Positions 29,629 to 60,098 of a stretch of 64,000 nucleotides of DNA are shown piece after piece. The DNA is from Candidatus Bathyarchaeota archaeon (GTDB lineage: Archaea > Thermoproteota > Bathyarchaeia > Bathyarchaeales > Bathycorpusculaceae), in the NCBI GenBank assembly GCA_026014745.1, contig JAOZHS010000003.1, positions 166,137 to 230,136 of the forward strand. Direction: 5' to 3'. The notes under the pieces are model-generated. The model was not told the DNA's origin. It saw only the letters and a list, made by a program, of their open reading frames with translations, and made no database searches. The stretch's first letter is position 1. Every line of letters starts with the position of its first letter. The translations under genes and the position numbers were made by a program.

Positions 29629-30348
29629 ATGTCTGTGTTTGCAAAGCCAGGAGCATATGACTATAATGCTACAGTTTTCTCGCCTGACGGGCGACTATAC
29701 CAAGTAGAATACGCGATGGAGTTGGTTAACCGAGGCGCCACCATTGTGGGCATAAAATGCCCCGAAGGCGTAGTTTTAGGTTCAGAAGAAAACCTTGACG
29801 TCCTCGAAAAAGCCAACGATTCCTGGAAAATATTCAAAATAGACCAACACATAGCAGCAGCCATAGTAGGATTAAGTTCAGACGCAAAAGTTCTAGTCGA
29901 AAAAGCAAGAATCGACGCCCAAAGTAACAAACTCACCTTTGACGAAACCATCGACGTAGAAACCGTTACAGAACACATCTGCGACATACAACAAGTATAC
30001 ACCCAACACGGCGGCGGACGCCCCTTCGGAGCAGCCCTAATCATAGGAGGCGTCGACAAAACAGGCCCACACGTGTTCGCTACTCAACCCACAGGCACCT
30101 ATAAGGCCTTTAAGGCCACCGCTTTAGGTGCAGGCAGAGAAGGTGTGCTCTCGATTCTAAAAGAAGAATACCGTGAGGATTTGACACTTGAAGGCAGCAT
30201 AAAACTCGCAGTTAAATGTCTCATAAAAAGCTGCCAAGAAAGACAGGTGGCGCCCAGATTAAAAATCGCTGTTGTGCCTGTTGCGACAAAGAAGATGGAA
30301 ATGCTATCTGACGAAACTGTGCAGAACAAAATCACAGAAAACGCGTAA
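29629..30348 (+). CDS. psmA: 20S proteasome alpha subunit
   Basis: 239 residues from ATG 29629 (the frame is open further upstream, but GAGGT and a TATA box fix this start). The alpha-type N-terminal YDYNATVFSPDGRLYQVEYA is intact, followed by GATIVGIKCPEGVVLGSEEN, VGLSSDAKVLVEKARIDAQS and GGRPFGAALIIGGVD. Alpha subunits form the gating outer rings and lack catalysis. Downstream is the end of the radical-SAM cluster on the other strand, so it is monocistronic. Confidence 0.95.
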   Translation: MSVFAKPGAYDYNATVFSPDGRLYQVEYAMELVNRGATIVGIKCPEGVVLGSEENLDVLEKANDSWKIFKIDQHIAAAIVGLSSDAKVLVEKARIDAQSNKLTFDETIDVETVTEHICDIQQVYTQHGGGRPFGAALIIGGVDKTGPHVFATQPTGTYKAFKATALGAGREGVLSILKEEYREDLTLEGSIKLAVKCLIKSCQERQVAPRLKIAVVPVATKKMEMLSDETVQNKITENA

Positions 30349-30367: not shown

Positions 30368-31363
30368 TTATTCTTCGTTCATCAGTTTACTGCACAGGAT
30401 GCATTGCTCGTTTTTTGATCTAAAAGCCTCTGCTTTGGACATTTGGCGTCTTAATTTGTCGAATTTTTTGGTGAGAAACAAAAATTCGTCTTGGACTGTC
30501 CAATCACTTTTGGCGGTAAATGGGGGATAAGAGAAGTCTGCGAAAGCATCATTGCAATGATGAAAGGACAGGTCCGCGTTGTACATGATTTGGGTGGGTC
30601 CATTTTTTATGTTAGTACAAACGCCCATGTTAGCGCAGTCAAAATAGGCGTCATCTTGATGTTTGGATTTTCCTGGGTGGGCGGGCATAGTCCAGAGGGT
30701 AACCTGTTTTTCTACCCGTAAGCGGTTTCCAAAATTATCTTCAGATAAAAGGGCGAAGGGGAAATCGACAACGTAAGCCTCGCGGGGACTTGACAGGGCA
30801 GCCCGGAAATCCTCAAATTCCTTGCAGAATCGCCCCAAAACCTTCCCGATAACATTGAGGGTTTGGTTTTTGTTTTCTTTACTATAGATTGTTTCAACGA
30901 TTACTGATGGCTGATAGGTCAATATCAGTGATAGCATGTGGCTTAGGCGGTTTTCAGCGTTGACGCCAAGGTTTTGGAAGAGGTTAAAGCCGAGCCTAAT
31001 TTCAACATGCGCTCCGACTTGGTAGAGCTTAGAGAATAGATTGTCGAGTGCATCTTGCTTGTCCCAGCCGCTGGTCTTGATTATGATTTTTGCAGAGGGA
31101 AGCAAGGTCGTGATGAGTTGGACAACATCAACGATTGACCACAATTCTCCGTTGCTGCTTTTGCTGCGGTAAAAGAAGGGTTCCCCGCCCGACAAGAAAA
31201 TAAGGCATTCTTCCTCCGGGTTTTGCTGGTAATATTGTGCGATTTCTGAGAGCTTTTTTCTAAACTTCTCAGGTTTGAGGACCGCTATGCCGGTGTCGCA
31301 GCAGCAGGTTGGACACCGCTTATCACACAAGTTCGTAACCCTAAAGATGTAAGAACTAAACAT
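30368..31363 (-). CDS. Radical SAM protein, partner of the SPASM gene
   Basis: 331 residues from ATG 31363, only 4 nt after the stop of the upstream radical-SAM/SPASM gene. The cluster motif C-x3-C-x2-C is C13, C17 and C20 in NLCDKRCPTCCCD, followed by ECLIFLSGGEPFFYR (SAM-binding GGE). A TIM-barrel body follows, with cysteines at FDCANMGVC, SFHHCNDAF and QCILCSKL that may bind an auxiliary cluster but do not form a standard SPASM. The tight spacing says both enzymes work on the same substrate, plausibly the peptide at 32758-32997. Confidence 0.85.
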   Translation of the reverse strand: MFSSYIFRVTNLCDKRCPTCCCDTGIAVLKPEKFRKKLSEIAQYYQQNPEEECLIFLSGGEPFFYRSKSSNGELWSIVDVVQLITTLLPSAKIIIKTSGWDKQDALDNLFSKLYQVGAHVEIRLGFNLFQNLGVNAENRLSHMLSLILTYQPSVIVETIYSKENKNQTLNVIGKVLGRFCKEFEDFRAALSSPREAYVVDFPFALLSEDNFGNRLRVEKQVTLWTMPAHPGKSKHQDDAYFDCANMGVCTNIKNGPTQIMYNADLSFHHCNDAFADFSYPPFTAKSDWTVQDEFLFLTKKFDKLRRQMSKAEAFRSKNEQCILCSKLMNEE

Positions 31364-31367
31364 GGTA

Positions 31368-32645
31368 TCACAAATTCCCCAACGCTTTCGGGCACCGAGA
31401 CGGCAACCCAAGCAAATCGTTGTTGTAGAATAATGCGTCGCCTCTGCAGCCGCCATCACAGTTGACCTTATTTGCGCAACTTCGGCATTCCGGGAGGTTA
31501 TCTATGGGGCTTGCTTTGATTGCTCGTAGCTGTTTTATGGATTCTGAATTTTGCCACAACTCCGAAATGCTGCCGCCTAAAAGATTACCCAGCTTAAAGG
31601 TCGAAAGCGAGGTGCAAGGGTATAGATCGCCGTAGAAGTCGATGTAAGCAAAATTGTCTCCGGCGGGGCATTGCATTTGGTTACCCTCTGGATTTGCGCG
31701 GTCAAAGATTGTTAGTTCGGCGGTGTTGAAGAAGATTTTTGGATACTCCGCTATTAGGCGGGTGAGCAGATTTTTCAGCTTTTTTTCTTGGACGGGGGTA
31801 AGTTTTAGTTGGTCATAATCGTTCTTGGTTCCAAAGGGCCTCAGGTCTTGCAACGTAATAGCAGAAACCCCCAGAGCGGAGGCTAAATCCGCGATTTTTT
31901 CTATTTCAGAAAAATTGTGTTTTGTTACTGTCACCATAACTGTTGTGGACACACCGTTTTCGATTAGCTTTTTTATTGTATTGACTGTTTTTTGGAATGC
32001 AGATTTTCCTCGGGTTAGGCTGTTTACTTCTTCAGTGGAGCCATCAAGGCTTATGCCCACGAATAAGTTGAATGCCTTAATTTTCTGCAGAACCTCTGGG
32101 GGCATTGAAACGCCGTTCGTTAAAACCGCAACCGTTACCCCCGCGGCTTTCAACTTTTCAACAACACTCCAGAGGTCTTCAAGTAAGAGGCATTCTCCGC
32201 CTGTCAATGTCACTTTAAACGCTTTAGCTTGAATTATTTTATCTGCGATTTCTTCAAATTCCCGCAGGGTAAGCGTTTTTTCTTTTGTTTGGTGCGTTTT
32301 TGCGTCAGGGAAACAGTAGATGCATGAGAGGTTACATTTGGGAGATAAAGCCCATAAAATGTTGAGCGGGCTTATTTCGCTTTTAATATCGTAGAATGTT
32401 GCAGCTGTATGCGGAACACCATCATCAACCGGAGCAGCAGTAGGGTTTTGGGGTTTTTCTTTTAGGAAGCTGTTTGTAAAAAGCCAATTCAGAAACGTTT
32501 CGTCTTGTTTTTCAAAGTTATCTTTGAGGATGCATCGGTGGTAGGCTTCTTTTGAGACGCTGATTAAGCCAAGATTTAAACCATTATAGAGAAGATAGCA
32601 GGCTGCTTCTTCGCGTACGATTACTTTTGGGTCGAGCTCCACCAT
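31368..32645 (-). CDS. Radical SAM/SPASM protein with PqqD-like N terminus
   Basis: 425 residues. Residues 1-60 (DPKVIVREEAACYLLYN, LISVSKEAYHR) have the layout of PqqD/RRE peptide-binding domains, a feature of RiPP maturases. The radical-SAM core has C104, C108 and C111 (CNLSCIYC), VTLTGGECLL and VGISLDGSTEE. The SPASM tail (CPAGDNFAYIDFYGDLYPCT, then CRSCANKVNCDGGCRG and a last Cys) binds auxiliary 4Fe-4S clusters. It lies 112 nt after a 79-residue peptide gene and 4 nt before a second radical-SAM gene. I infer a peptide-modifying enzyme. Confidence 0.88.
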   Translation of the reverse strand: MVELDPKVIVREEAACYLLYNGLNLGLISVSKEAYHRCILKDNFEKQDETFLNWLFTNSFLKEKPQNPTAAPVDDGVPHTAATFYDIKSEISPLNILWALSPKCNLSCIYCFPDAKTHQTKEKTLTLREFEEIADKIIQAKAFKVTLTGGECLLLEDLWSVVEKLKAAGVTVAVLTNGVSMPPEVLQKIKAFNLFVGISLDGSTEEVNSLTRGKSAFQKTVNTIKKLIENGVSTTVMVTVTKHNFSEIEKIADLASALGVSAITLQDLRPFGTKNDYDQLKLTPVQEKKLKNLLTRLIAEYPKIFFNTAELTIFDRANPEGNQMQCPAGDNFAYIDFYGDLYPCTSLSTFKLGNLLGGSISELWQNSESIKQLRAIKASPIDNLPECRSCANKVNCDGGCRGDALFYNNDLLGLPSRCPKALGNL

Positions 32646-32757
32646 TATGTATCAACGCAGGTTTTGGGTTGTTAGCTTAGTTTTAGTCAGTTATTTGATG
32701 CAAGAGTTTTAGGGAAAAAGGGAAAACGGTTTTTTGGTTTAAATGCTCAAGGCACGG

Positions 32758-32997
32758 TTATTTCTTTACGACCTTAGTTGCTGCGGTTTTAACAACTTGG
32801 TCACGGATGTTAGCAACGCCTACTCCGCCGATGCCCCAGTCAGCTACTAATCCGCCGGGTCTAGTCACCACTTTGAATGGTTGACCCTCAAAGTTGTGGA
32901 GTTCCACCGTGATTGCCTTGGATTTTGCGTCTTTAGCTAATCTTTGCATTTCAGAGAGCATTTTAATTGACGTTGAAATTTTTTCTTCCTCTGCCAA
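32758..32997 (-). CDS. 79-residue peptide, candidate RiPP precursor
   Basis: The start is TTG 32997, chosen for GGGGGTGA 5 nt upstream; the frame is open to 33033. Residues 1-27 are a charged helix (AEEEKISTSIKMLSEMQRLA), 28-45 are strand-like, 46-63 form a Gly-rich segment with one Trp (RPGGLVADWGIGGVGVAN) and the tail is basic (KTAATKVVKK). There is no Cys. It has its own TATA box and lies directly upstream of two radical-SAM genes. Helical leader plus Gly-rich C-terminal half fits a precursor peptide, but a small structural protein is possible. Confidence 0.7.
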   Translation of the reverse strand: MAEEEKISTSIKMLSEMQRLAKDAKSKAITVELHNFEGQPFKVVTRPGGLVADWGIGGVGVANIRDQVVKTAATKVVKK

Positions 32998-33033
32998 AAT
33001 TTCACCCCCTGTTTCTATGTAGCAAGTCAGCAC

Positions 33034-33045
33034 TAACTATAAAAA
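33034..33045 (-). promoter_or_regulatory. TATA box for the peptide gene
   Basis: On the minus strand tttttatagtta lies about 40 nt before the TTG at 32997, predicting a ~20-nt leader bearing GGGGGTGA. The peptide and radical-SAM genes thus have a promoter separate from the peptidase pair. Confidence 0.55.
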
Positions 33046-33205
33046 TGTAATCTATATTAAATTTTCATATACCCGCCTGAAAGAAAAGCAAACTAAAAGC
33101 AACGTAACTTCTGTCGCAACGTGCTCCCTAATTATGCAATTCAATCGTACCCATTAGGGCACAACACAATCAGCACAAAAGAAACTTAAAAACCAATGAA
33201 GATAC

Positions 33206-33240
33206 GGAAAAAAGAAAAGCGGGAAGTCTGAGTTACTCAC
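33206..33240 (-). terminator. Terminator after the peptidase gene
   Basis: Immediately after the stop at 33241 the minus strand shows GAGT...ACTC pairing and then an oligo-T tract (complement of 33207-33219). It closes the 34280-33241 transcript. Confidence 0.45.
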
Positions 33241-34023
33241 TCAAACTCGCTTTATTGGCGTGCGTATAGGGGTTTTTACTACTTTTTCTATAATTGCAGG
33301 CTTTATTGTAGAAACGACAACAACGCCCGAGGCCTTAGCATTTGGGTTGCCAAGCAATCGCAGATGGTCACGGTCATGAAGCAGTAATCCAGCCGCTGAT
33401 GCATCAATGGGTGATAGTTCATTGAATTTTTCGGTGTATTTTGATATACCTGCATCGTAGGCTTGTTGGTAGGTTTTGCCTTCAAGCAACGCGTAGTTTG
33501 CGGCGTTTGAAGCTTCAATGAATTTGTCTAAGTACCATAAATGAACCCAGTGTAATTCGTCATAGCCCAAATATGCTTTGGTTTCAGCGGAAGTGATAGC
33601 TAATGGGCCTAACCCTATTGCGCTTTCACAAGATACTGTGCTTACGGCTCGTTTGGTTAGTAAATCTACGTTTGTAGAGTCGATTGCCGCGGTTATGACG
33701 TTGCTGTTTTGTCCATAAAGGGTGTAGGAGCTTCCGTGGTCGTAGTGGATTATGAAGTCGGGTTTTACGCTGTTTATGGTTGACTCTATGTTGGCGCGGT
33801 TTGCGTTGTTGCCGCCAAGGTCGGTCACTGTCCAGCCCTCGGCTATAGCTTTGGTTTTTACTTGCTCCGCCGCGGGATATGAGAACAATGCGGTATAGTT
33901 GTCGCCGGGTACGTTTGGTCGGATGATCACAAGTTTTTTAGAAGTCGCAAAGTGCCATTTTTTTAGCAGGTTAGTGTAGGACAGATTTTCTATAAGCTTT
34001 TTTGAATCGACGGTTACGTTCAT
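33241..34023 (-). CDS. Caspase/gingipain-fold cysteine peptidase
   Basis: 260 residues. PDFIIHYDHGSSYTLYGQ places the catalytic His at 96 (H-G), and AVSTVSCESAIGLGPLAI puts the Cys at 132, followed by TKAYLGYDE: the dyad layout of clan CD (C25/CHAT/clostripain-like) peptidases. The N-terminal part (KLVIIRPNVPGD) is the first Rossmann-like strand. There is no signal peptide, so it acts inside the cell. The ATG overlaps the stop of the 86-residue gene (ATGA), giving translational coupling. Next to radical-SAM genes and a small peptide, I infer a leader or maturation peptidase. Confidence 0.72.
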   Translation of the reverse strand: MNVTVDSKKLIENLSYTNLLKKWHFATSKKLVIIRPNVPGDNYTALFSYPAAEQVKTKAIAEGWTVTDLGGNNANRANIESTINSVKPDFIIHYDHGSSYTLYGQNSNVITAAIDSTNVDLLTKRAVSTVSCESAIGLGPLAITSAETKAYLGYDELHWVHLWYLDKFIEASNAANYALLEGKTYQQAYDAGISKYTEKFNELSPIDASAAGLLLHDRDHLRLLGNPNAKASGVVVVSTIKPAIIEKVVKTPIRTPIKRV

Positions 34024-34280
34024 TCTTCTTTTCCTCCTTTGGCTAATTCAAGTCTGGTTCGGGCCAAAATCTTGGAGAATTCTTGACCATATTCGGTGTC
34101 GTTTTCTACTTCTTTTTCTATCTCTTGGGGGGTGAATGTTTTTGTGCCTACAACAATCGCGGGTTGGTTTAGTTTGGTTGTGGGAATTTTGCTCTTCCAC
34201 TCTTTAATGTCATTGAGGGCGATTTGTTTGGTTACTTGTTTTTCTAATTTTCTTTGCTCATCGTAATCTTTTCCACTCAA
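34020..34280 (-). CDS. 86-residue helical protein coupled to the peptidase
   Basis: It starts at TTG 34280 after GAGG. It is mainly charged helix (KDYDEQRKLEKQVTKQIALN, FTPQEIEKEVENDTEYGQEF) with a short strand QPAIVVGTKTF. There is no Cys and no membrane segment. Its last codons overlap the ATG of the peptidase gene. It could be a partner, inhibitor or substrate of that peptidase. I know no family for it. Confidence 0.65.
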   Translation of the reverse strand: MSGKDYDEQRKLEKQVTKQIALNDIKEWKSKIPTTKLNQPAIVVGTKTFTPQEIEKEVENDTEYGQEFSKILARTRLELAKGGKEE

Positions 34281-34312
34281 TCAAAAAACCTCGTTACTAT
34301 CTAAGAACACTC

Positions 34313-34322
34313 TATATATAAT
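34313..34322 (-). promoter_or_regulatory. TATA box for the peptidase operon
   Basis: On the minus strand attatataga lies 33-42 nt before the TTG at 34280. Confidence 0.55.
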
Positions 34323-37179: not shown

Positions 37180-37487
37180 GGCTGGTGTGTTGGCCGTAAC
37201 CTGCCTTCTGTTGTTGTGGCATTCGGCTAATCGGGCTACCTGCACCTTCCGGCAGAGACTTCATCGGCGCTGTTTGCCCTTTCCACTTGCAGGACGGCCG
37301 TTTCACCGTTTCGCGCCCAGCAGACTCGACATCACAAATGTGTCATTGCCGTTTCCGGGTGGACGTTTCGTTTCTGCTCCGTTGCCAAGCCTCTCGGCTT
37401 GTCCCCTGCGGGACTGCAATTCTGCATGTGGGCAGAGTTTCCTCAGACCCTCAAATTTTGGGTCCGGAAGCCACACACCAACACGCC
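37180..37487 (-). ncRNA. rnpB: RNase P RNA (archaeal type A)
   Basis: The catalytic RNA of RNase P, which matures tRNA 5' ends. On the minus strand the 5' part holds GAGGAAACUC (conserved region I) and the 3' part AGAAGGCAGGUUACGGCC (conserved region V). The ends pair: TTGGTGTGTGGC near 37470-37483 with GCCAACACACCA near 37183-37195, forming helix P1. Conserved internal blocks include GAAACGAAACGUCC and GGUGCAGGUAGCCC. The ~308-nt size suits archaea. It is GC-rich in an AT-rich setting. The exact ends are inferred from P1. Confidence 0.88.
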
Positions 37488-59039: not shown

Positions 59040-60098
59040 CTATTTTTTTCTTAGTGCCTCGGGTATGTAGGCGCATCTTGTGTCTTGGCCCAAAATGTCG
59101 CCCGTATAGAACAGCGCTGCGGATCGGCAGCCGCCGCACAGTTCTTTGTATTCGCAGACGCCACATTTGCCCTTGATTTTTGTCTTATCTTGAGCTTTTT
59201 TGAAGAAATCGCTGTCTTGCATGTCTTGCCAGATTTGTTTTATGGGCTTTGTTTTGATGTTGCCGATGCGGTAGGCGTCGTTGTAGCTGCATGGGATTCC
59301 GTCGCCGTTTTCGGCTATGCTCATGAATTTGCCAAAGAAGCATCTGCCCAAGAAGAAGCTGTTGTACCACTTGTCAAAGTCAGGCATGCCCCGTTGCTTG
59401 GCGACGCGCGCGTAGAAGGGGATGTACACATTGATAGCGGGGTTGCCGTTGTATTCTTGAGTTAGGTCGTAGAGTTTGTTGCATGCCCACTCGTATTGGT
59501 CGGGGGTGGGGTCATTTTTGAGGCATTCTTTGCTATAGGGAATTAAGCCGTGGAAAACCACCCAGCGGGCACCATATTTTTTGGCTAAGTCAAGTACGTG
59601 GCGCATATCAGCCTCGTTAACGTTTGTGACTTCGCCTGCGTTGGCAAAAGTGTAAACTAAAACGTTGAGCAGATTCTCTTTTGAGAAGCGTTCAACCGCA
59701 GAAACAGCGGCGTGATAAGCGCCTTTGCCGCGAATCGCATCGTTGCTGGCTTCTGAGCCGTCGATGCTGACTGAGATTTTGGTTTGGTTCTTGACGATTT
59801 TTTTGAAAGCCTCATCGTCAAGCATGCGTCCGTCGGTTATGATGCTTGTGCATAGCCCCTTTTCTGTGGCGTAGTCAAGCACTTCAAAGAGGTCTTTGCG
59901 CAGAAACGGTTGCCCCCCTGTTATGCCGAAGTAGGTGGCGCCGAAGTCTGCTGCTTGGTCAACGATTTTTTTGGCGTCCTCGGTGCCGATTTCGTCGGTT
60001 GCCTTGGATTTACCTGCGGAGGTGCAATGCACGCAGTTGCTGTCGCATTCAAAGGTGCATCGCCAAGGAATAATAAACACTGGACCTTTACCAGTCAA
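59040..60098 (-). CDS. Radical SAM/SPASM protein
   Basis: 352 residues from TTG 60098. The radical-SAM motif is CDSNCVHC (C-x3-C-x2-C) near residue 18-25, preceded by an extra Cys in WRCTFEC. FGITGGQPFLRKDL is the GGE-like element with Gln, KISVSIDGSEASNDAIRG the SAM-binding region, and CFFGKFMSIAENGDGIPCSY with CGVCEYKELCGGCRS forms the SPASM auxiliary sites. Close relatives include AhbD-type heme synthases and peptide maturases; I cannot choose. It follows the MBL gene on the same strand with 75 nt between. Confidence 0.88.
   Translation of the reverse strand: MTGKGPVFIIPWRCTFECDSNCVHCTSAGKSKATDEIGTEDAKKIVDQAADFGATYFGITGGQPFLRKDLFEVLDYATEKGLCTSIITDGRMLDDEAFKKIVKNQTKISVSIDGSEASNDAIRGKGAYHAAVSAVERFSKENLLNVLVYTFANAGEVTNVNEADMRHVLDLAKKYGARWVVFHGLIPYSKECLKNDPTPDQYEWACNKLYDLTQEYNGNPAINVYIPFYARVAKQRGMPDFDKWYNSFFLGRCFFGKFMSIAENGDGIPCSYNDAYRIGNIKTKPIKQIWQDMQDSDFFKKAQDKTKIKGKCGVCEYKELCGGCRSAALFYTGDILGQDTRCAYIPEALRKK

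Follow-up and report, generated by a model that had tools for sequence, protein, structure and literature searches.

A caspase-fold peptidase with a small co-translated partner beside an orphan radical-SAM peptide locus in a member of the Bathyarchaeota

The DNA analysed here, hereafter called the window, is a stretch of 64,000 nucleotides (nt) from Candidatus Bathyarchaeota archaeon (GenBank assembly GCA_026014745.1, contig JAOZHS010000003.1, positions 166,137 to 230,136). Five genes on its minus strand encode, in transcriptional order, an 86-residue protein, a caspase-fold peptidase, a 79-residue peptide, a radical S-adenosylmethionine (radical-SAM) enzyme with a SPASM domain, and a second radical-SAM protein. 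With a probability of about 60%, we read these genes as two neighbouring, separate modules. Module A (34280-33241) would comprise the peptidase and a co-translated docking partner, and module B (32997-30368) an orphan peptide together with two radical-SAM enzymes; the two probably differ in function. The latter is plausibly a locus of the type that makes ribosomally synthesized and post-translationally modified peptides (RiPPs). The original prediction, made from the sequence of the window, had placed all five genes in a single RiPP system.

Distribution and layout of the five genes

The neighbourhood survey covered 257 genomes of the class; each species was represented by a single genome, and assemblies were incomplete. 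Homologues of the peptidase were present in eight of these genomes. A seven-row profile of the 86-residue protein gave strong matches in seven genomes, all of them peptidase carriers, and the small gene was located directly upstream of the peptidase gene in every case (7/7); four more matches, at E values of 0.006-0.009, look like chance. The pair was found in six relatives, and neither the 79-residue peptide nor the second radical-SAM enzyme was detected in any of them. This includes G020, the contig of which ends shortly after the peptidase gene; searches covering the whole of this genome still revealed no peptide and no second enzyme. The flanking genes of the pair vary from relative to relative, which suggests that the two genes are transferred together. 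Judged by these gene neighbourhoods, the 86-residue gene and the peptidase gene appear to constitute a mobile two-gene module of their own, with near-exclusive coupling.

The distribution of the remaining genes is much narrower. Outside its own genome, the 79-residue peptide has no relative in 101 related genomes, in the 257 class genomes at an E value of 0.001, or in the plasmids and viral contigs searched. Matches at E values of 0.02-0.7 in the class genomes look like chance, and the sole match in a pattern scan of GTDB, an 18-residue stretch from Mycobacterium asiaticum, was read as a chance Gly-rich match. Searches of 398 genomes of the phylum, plasmids, and viral contigs with the second radical-SAM enzyme revealed, apart from the protein itself, no relative extending past the core; the remaining matches cover only 60 residues of the radical-SAM core.

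The layout of the locus is summarized in Table 1. The open reading frame (ORF) listing agrees with the gene order and strand given in the original prediction, and both the ATGA coupling of the 86-residue gene with the peptidase gene (overlap at 34023-34020) and the spacing of 4 nt between the two radical-SAM genes were confirmed. The coding score of the 86-residue gene is 0.45 in frame and negative in the other frames. That of the peptide gene is 0.39, as compared to a genome coding median of 0.27, and its other frames are negative as well. The listed ORF of the second radical-SAM gene starts at 31459, upstream of the likely ATG. An intergenic gap of 112 nt separates the peptide gene from the SPASM gene.

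Between the two modules lie a terminator and, after it, the promoter and ribosome site predicted for the peptide gene. The terminator proposed earlier holds as a sequence feature: a hairpin at 33253-33216, followed by UUUUCUUUUUU, has a folding energy of -16.8 kcal/mol (z = -5.33), and none of 200 shuffles was as stable. A generic terminator pattern scan did not pick up this hairpin. The TATA box and ribosome site described ahead of the peptide gene were also recognized on reading the sequence.

Conserved co-occurrence of the five genes, as expected for one system, was therefore not found. The proposed five-gene system is unsupported because the pairs in relatives stand without the peptide genes and the two units have a strong terminator between them; on the genome survey, it was rejected as the default reading.

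Table 1. Features of the two modules in the window
Feature	Position	Strand	Basis
86-residue small partner protein	34280-34020	-	ORF, TTG start; stop overlaps peptidase start
260-residue caspase-fold (clan CD) peptidase, His96 and Cys132	34023-33241	-	ORF, conserved dyad, AlphaFold2 fold
Intrinsic-terminator-like hairpin and U tract, between peptidase pair and peptide unit	33253-33208	-	Folding versus shuffles
Predicted TATA-like box TTTTTATAG of peptide gene	33045-33037	-	Sequence reading
Predicted ribosome site GGGGGTGA of peptide gene	33009-33002	-	Sequence reading
79-residue peptide, candidate RiPP precursor	32997-32758	-	ORF, TTG start, coding score
425-residue radical-SAM/SPASM protein	32645-31368	-	PF04055 and SPASM matches, fold matches
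331-residue second radical-SAM protein	31363-30368	-	Sequence, CxxxCxxC

The caspase-fold peptidase and its small partner

By fold and dyad, the peptidase is a cysteine peptidase of clan CD (caspase fold), for which proteolytic activity is predicted. Residues His96 and Cys132, both at the positions originally given, do not vary among nine homologues, one of them bacterial; the alignment included sequences from seven other class genomes and one bacterial plasmid. The AlphaFold2 (AF2) model, built from eight sequences with the bacterial plasmid row left out, has a mean predicted local distance difference test (pLDDT) score of 86.3. Among solved structures, its best Foldseek match was a SAVED-CHAT protease (1.5e-8), followed by RgpB (1.9e-5) and caspase-11 (1.4e-4). 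These fold matches and the invariant His and Cys indicate that the clan CD assignment made from the sequence is right with regard to fold and dyad but does not extend to any curated family. No Pfam or NCBIfam family, including C25 gingipains and C14 caspases, scored above its cut-off; the peptidase has no sequence match in the PDB and no match in the phage records or viral contigs searched. PADLOC matched neither the peptidase nor its 86-residue partner. Filing the peptidase as a C25 gingipain or as part of a PADLOC system was rejected on these cut-offs.

The clan CD peptidases of the CHAT and gingipain types (SAVED-CHAT, the TPR-CHAT protease of Craspase, and RgpB) share with the window peptidase a common caspase-type fold, in which His and then Cys follow successive strands. 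Identity to these proteins is only 13-15%, however, and the window peptidase is a stand-alone protein without TPR or SAVED domain that possesses the 86-residue partner. No CRISPR genes were recognized in its vicinity.

Several homologues occur in other gene settings. In a plasmid record labelled Stenotrophomonas rhizophila (CP065518.1; locus L089, 1469-8528), the caspase-like gene, a distant bacterial homologue, follows HATPase and receiver-domain genes, and genes for a SIR2 protein matching the defence candidate PDC-S25 and a DNA methyltransferase are located nearby. The surroundings were read by eye as a Tn7-like element, and the receiver-domain gene was also named by eye. The distant homologues in loci L130, L131, and L132 (G042, G545, and G431) reside in viral- or plasmid-looking gene sets; a PHROGs search on the genes of the distant elements gave one weak tape-measure match and nothing else. 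In G049 (L020, 1408-4363), the pair adjoins a gene for a NAL1-like serine peptidase and several proteins that appear to end in membrane helices. The peptidase fragment of G214 (L024, 8274-12217) is flanked by a papain-family protein and a 715-residue protein without known family.

Proteins of the 86-residue family share the conserved stretch GTKTFTPxEIxxEVENDTEYG. In one of the class genomes, G057, this partner domain is also present within the central loop of a major facilitator superfamily (MFS) transporter (L019, 12312-13715), which is encoded two genes, or about 2 kb, downstream of the peptidase pair. The insert and the stand-alone copy share 63% identity over 68 residues (BLAST, 5e-32), and two sibling transporters adjoining the fusion do not contain the domain. 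Its occurrence in a transporter loop is hard to square with a plain chaperone and suggests that the domain is portable and serves for docking or as a target. A bolder reading, which we hold only tentatively, is that the domain marks proteins for the archaeal caspase-fold peptidase, acting as a free adaptor or substrate, as a transporter insert, and perhaps, in a bacterial defence gene set, as a receiver fusion. If true, the archaeal peptidase would be a caspase whose targeting domain can be transferred genetically. The C-terminal region of the receiver protein in L089 is partner-like and in register (P 0.12), as is a 94-residue gene overlapping the start of the distant peptidase in L131 (P 0.09). 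Neither likeness is significant alone, and the hidden Markov model (HMM) of the partner family matched neither of them.

The peptide and the two radical-SAM enzymes

The 79-residue peptide has a helical-looking N-terminal half and a Gly-rich stretch, PGGLVADWGIGGVGVANIRDQ, and contains neither Cys nor Tyr. Its similarity to the other four proteins is no better than that of shuffled sequences, and no NCBIfam family was matched. Without Cys, the peptide cannot carry an internal thioether; assignment to the sactipeptides or ranthipeptides, which require a precursor Cys, was rejected. If a carbon crosslink is formed, its obvious site would, we infer, be Trp54 in the ADWGIGGVGVAN stretch; epimerisation is another possibility.

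The SPASM protein was matched by PF04055 (1.3e-26) and SPASM (5e-9). It contains CxxxCxxC at positions 104/108/111 and C-terminal cysteines at 326, 344, 387, 390, 396, 400, and 418. The best fold matches of its model (core pLDDT mostly 75-94) are SuiB, SkfB, CteB, anSME, and PqqE, which supports a RiPP-maturase-like predicted fold. In common with SuiB (streptide) and with SkfB and CteB (sactipeptides), it has a radical-SAM core with C-terminal SPASM, an N-terminal domain, and an adjoining small peptide. The window locus differs from these systems in a precursor without Cys and in a second radical-SAM enzyme of no assigned family. Two named pathways were rejected on scores of the SPASM enzyme: mycofactocin (150.4 versus the MftC cut-off of 265 bits) and pyrroloquinoline quinone (94.2 versus the PqqE cut-off of 381 bits).

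The first 60 residues of the SPASM protein had been described as resembling PqqD or a RiPP recognition element (RRE). For the N-terminal 80-90 residues or so, two strands and two helices are predicted, and this topology is RRE-like. The pLDDT values of 23-42 in this region, together with the lack of a PqqD match, leave an RRE plausible and unproven: no Pfam or NCBIfam PqqD/RRE family was matched, and hhalign against PqqD was uninformative. The best matches in relatives cover the core from residue ~80-90, not the N-terminal domain, and the N-terminal 92 residues matched nothing besides themselves among the collected loci.

The second radical-SAM protein contains CxxxCxxC at positions 13/17/20. 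Five additional cysteines towards the C-terminus, at 243, 249, 270, 321, and 324, may hold an auxiliary cluster. The protein scored below Pfam cut-offs and displays a weak similarity to HxsC (3e-4). The combination of a SPASM radical-SAM enzyme with a second radical-SAM enzyme resembles HxsABCD. An Hxs system was nevertheless rejected: the HxsC score is 19.7 versus a cut-off of 267.9 bits, and the peptide has no His-Xaa-Ser repeats. HxsB was absent from the 25 top-ranking matches to the SPASM enzyme.

Modification of the peptide by one or both of these enzymes, as originally proposed, remains plausible in view of the adjacent genes and the maturase-like fold; the locus itself is known from a single example.

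Three further features of the window were recorded. A second gene for a proteasome alpha subunit (29629-30345, plus strand) is convergent with the radical-SAM genes. In its grouping, it falls together with a supernumerary copy from G001 (99/96 support); a 70%-identical copy is present in its own genome (G000:C1:488539), and the two genes that follow the latter also follow it in other relatives. Another radical-SAM/SPASM protein is encoded at 59070-60071 (minus strand), with AhbD heme b synthase as the closest family (185 versus a cut-off of 500 bits). Finally, an archaeal RNase P RNA is located at 37185-37486 (minus strand; 190 bits); this RNA and a proteasome alpha gene mark the genome as archaeal.

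Two modules and the alternatives

In the two-module reading, the partner of module A would have a docking or regulatory role, holding the peptidase and presenting substrates to it. Other proteins that carry this domain, the MFS transporter of G057 among them, would be targets or tethers of the peptidase. Module B would be transcribed from its own predicted promoter. The N-terminal domain of the SPASM enzyme would bind the helical leader of the 79-residue peptide, and the enzyme would install a carbon-based modification near Trp54, within the Gly-rich stretch. The second radical-SAM enzyme would make a second modification, and the protease releasing the product is probably encoded elsewhere.

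Several observations weigh against this reading. The docking role of the partner has a single transporter fusion behind it, and the peptidase fragment of G214 is without recognizable partner. The two modules adjoin and are co-oriented in the window, which could be read as function, and in G097 (L018, 10722-11783) an AmmeMemoRadiSam-like radical-SAM gene is present 95 nt downstream of the peptidase gene on the same strand. The RRE of the SPASM enzyme is unconfirmed. Module B is known once, so that neither covariation nor a conserved core can be shown, and the peptide might be no substrate at all.

The reading of all five genes as one RiPP system is unlikely; here the peptide would be modified by the radical-SAM enzymes and freed of its leader by the peptidase, with the 86-residue protein assisting. 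The genes are all adjacent and in the same orientation, and bacterial gene sets that join a radical-SAM-modified peptide with a peptidase are known. In the VMAP and FtsH ternary conflict systems of bacteria, radical-SAM-modified FxSxx-COOH peptides are cut by a metallopeptidase (Kaur et al., 2020; PMC7159879). These systems resemble the window locus in that a radical-SAM/SPASM enzyme accompanies a small peptide that evolves fast, and caspase-superfamily peptidases occur in the same system class. According to Kaur et al. (2020; PMC7159879), however, caspase pairings and radical-SAM peptide modification are mutually exclusive in the bacterial conflict systems. None of the Pfam matches of the tested neighbours fits MoxR or vWA. 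It would be new for a caspase-fold peptidase to serve a RiPP, but the genome survey and the terminator speak against it. Another explanation, to which we give real weight while leaning against it, is that the peptide is an unrelated small protein and that the radical-SAM enzymes act on a cofactor or on another protein. The lack of Cys and Tyr, the lack of relatives in any search, the gap ahead of the SPASM gene, and the unconfirmed RRE all fit this explanation. RiPP precursors are, on the other hand, typically short, fast-evolving, and without relatives; the predicted promoter and ribosome site of the peptide head the unit, and the best fold matches of the SPASM enzyme are peptide maturases.

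Two alternatives concern the peptidase pair, and both are possible but somewhat doubtful. The pair may be toxin-antitoxin-like, with the small protein, made first and co-translated, inhibiting the peptidase in the way staphostatins inhibit staphopains. The position of the small gene, its ATGA coupling, the sporadic distribution of the peptidase among changing neighbourhoods, and the fact that the small protein was never found apart from the peptidase are consistent with this. A partner domain within a transporter would be unexpected for a plain inhibitor, though, and the homologue in G214 is without a recognized partner. Alternatively, the peptidase may be the effector of defence or cell suicide, with the partner or domain-fused proteins as sensors or targets, comparable to CHAT and Csx30; the Craspase protease has Csx30 as its dedicated protein target (PMC11106740). 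The best PDB match, a CRISPR SAVED-CHAT protease, and the setting of the bacterial homologue in L089, beside HATPase and receiver-domain genes and near the SIR2 defence candidate PDC-S25, point in this direction. Against it stand the absence of PADLOC matches for both archaeal proteins, the possibly viral or plasmid gene sets around several distant homologues, and the lack of recognized CRISPR, STAND, or MoxR-vWA genes around homologues, most neighbours having been read by eye only. The antitoxin-like, defence-protease, and unrelated-peptide explanations each concern one module and are compatible with the two-module reading.

Treating the two modules as separate avoids announcing a caspase-processed RiPP in error. 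Genome mining has already reported radical-SAM RiPP clusters from archaea (PMC12144867), and the peptide locus described here is one more candidate of this kind, with a chemistry other than intra-peptide thioethers. In bacteria, proteases of the caspase fold that have a dedicated partner play a central part in immunity and cell death; in archaea they are little known. The pair in the window belongs to no curated Pfam or NCBIfam family, and the transporter fusion offers a natural clue to its targets.

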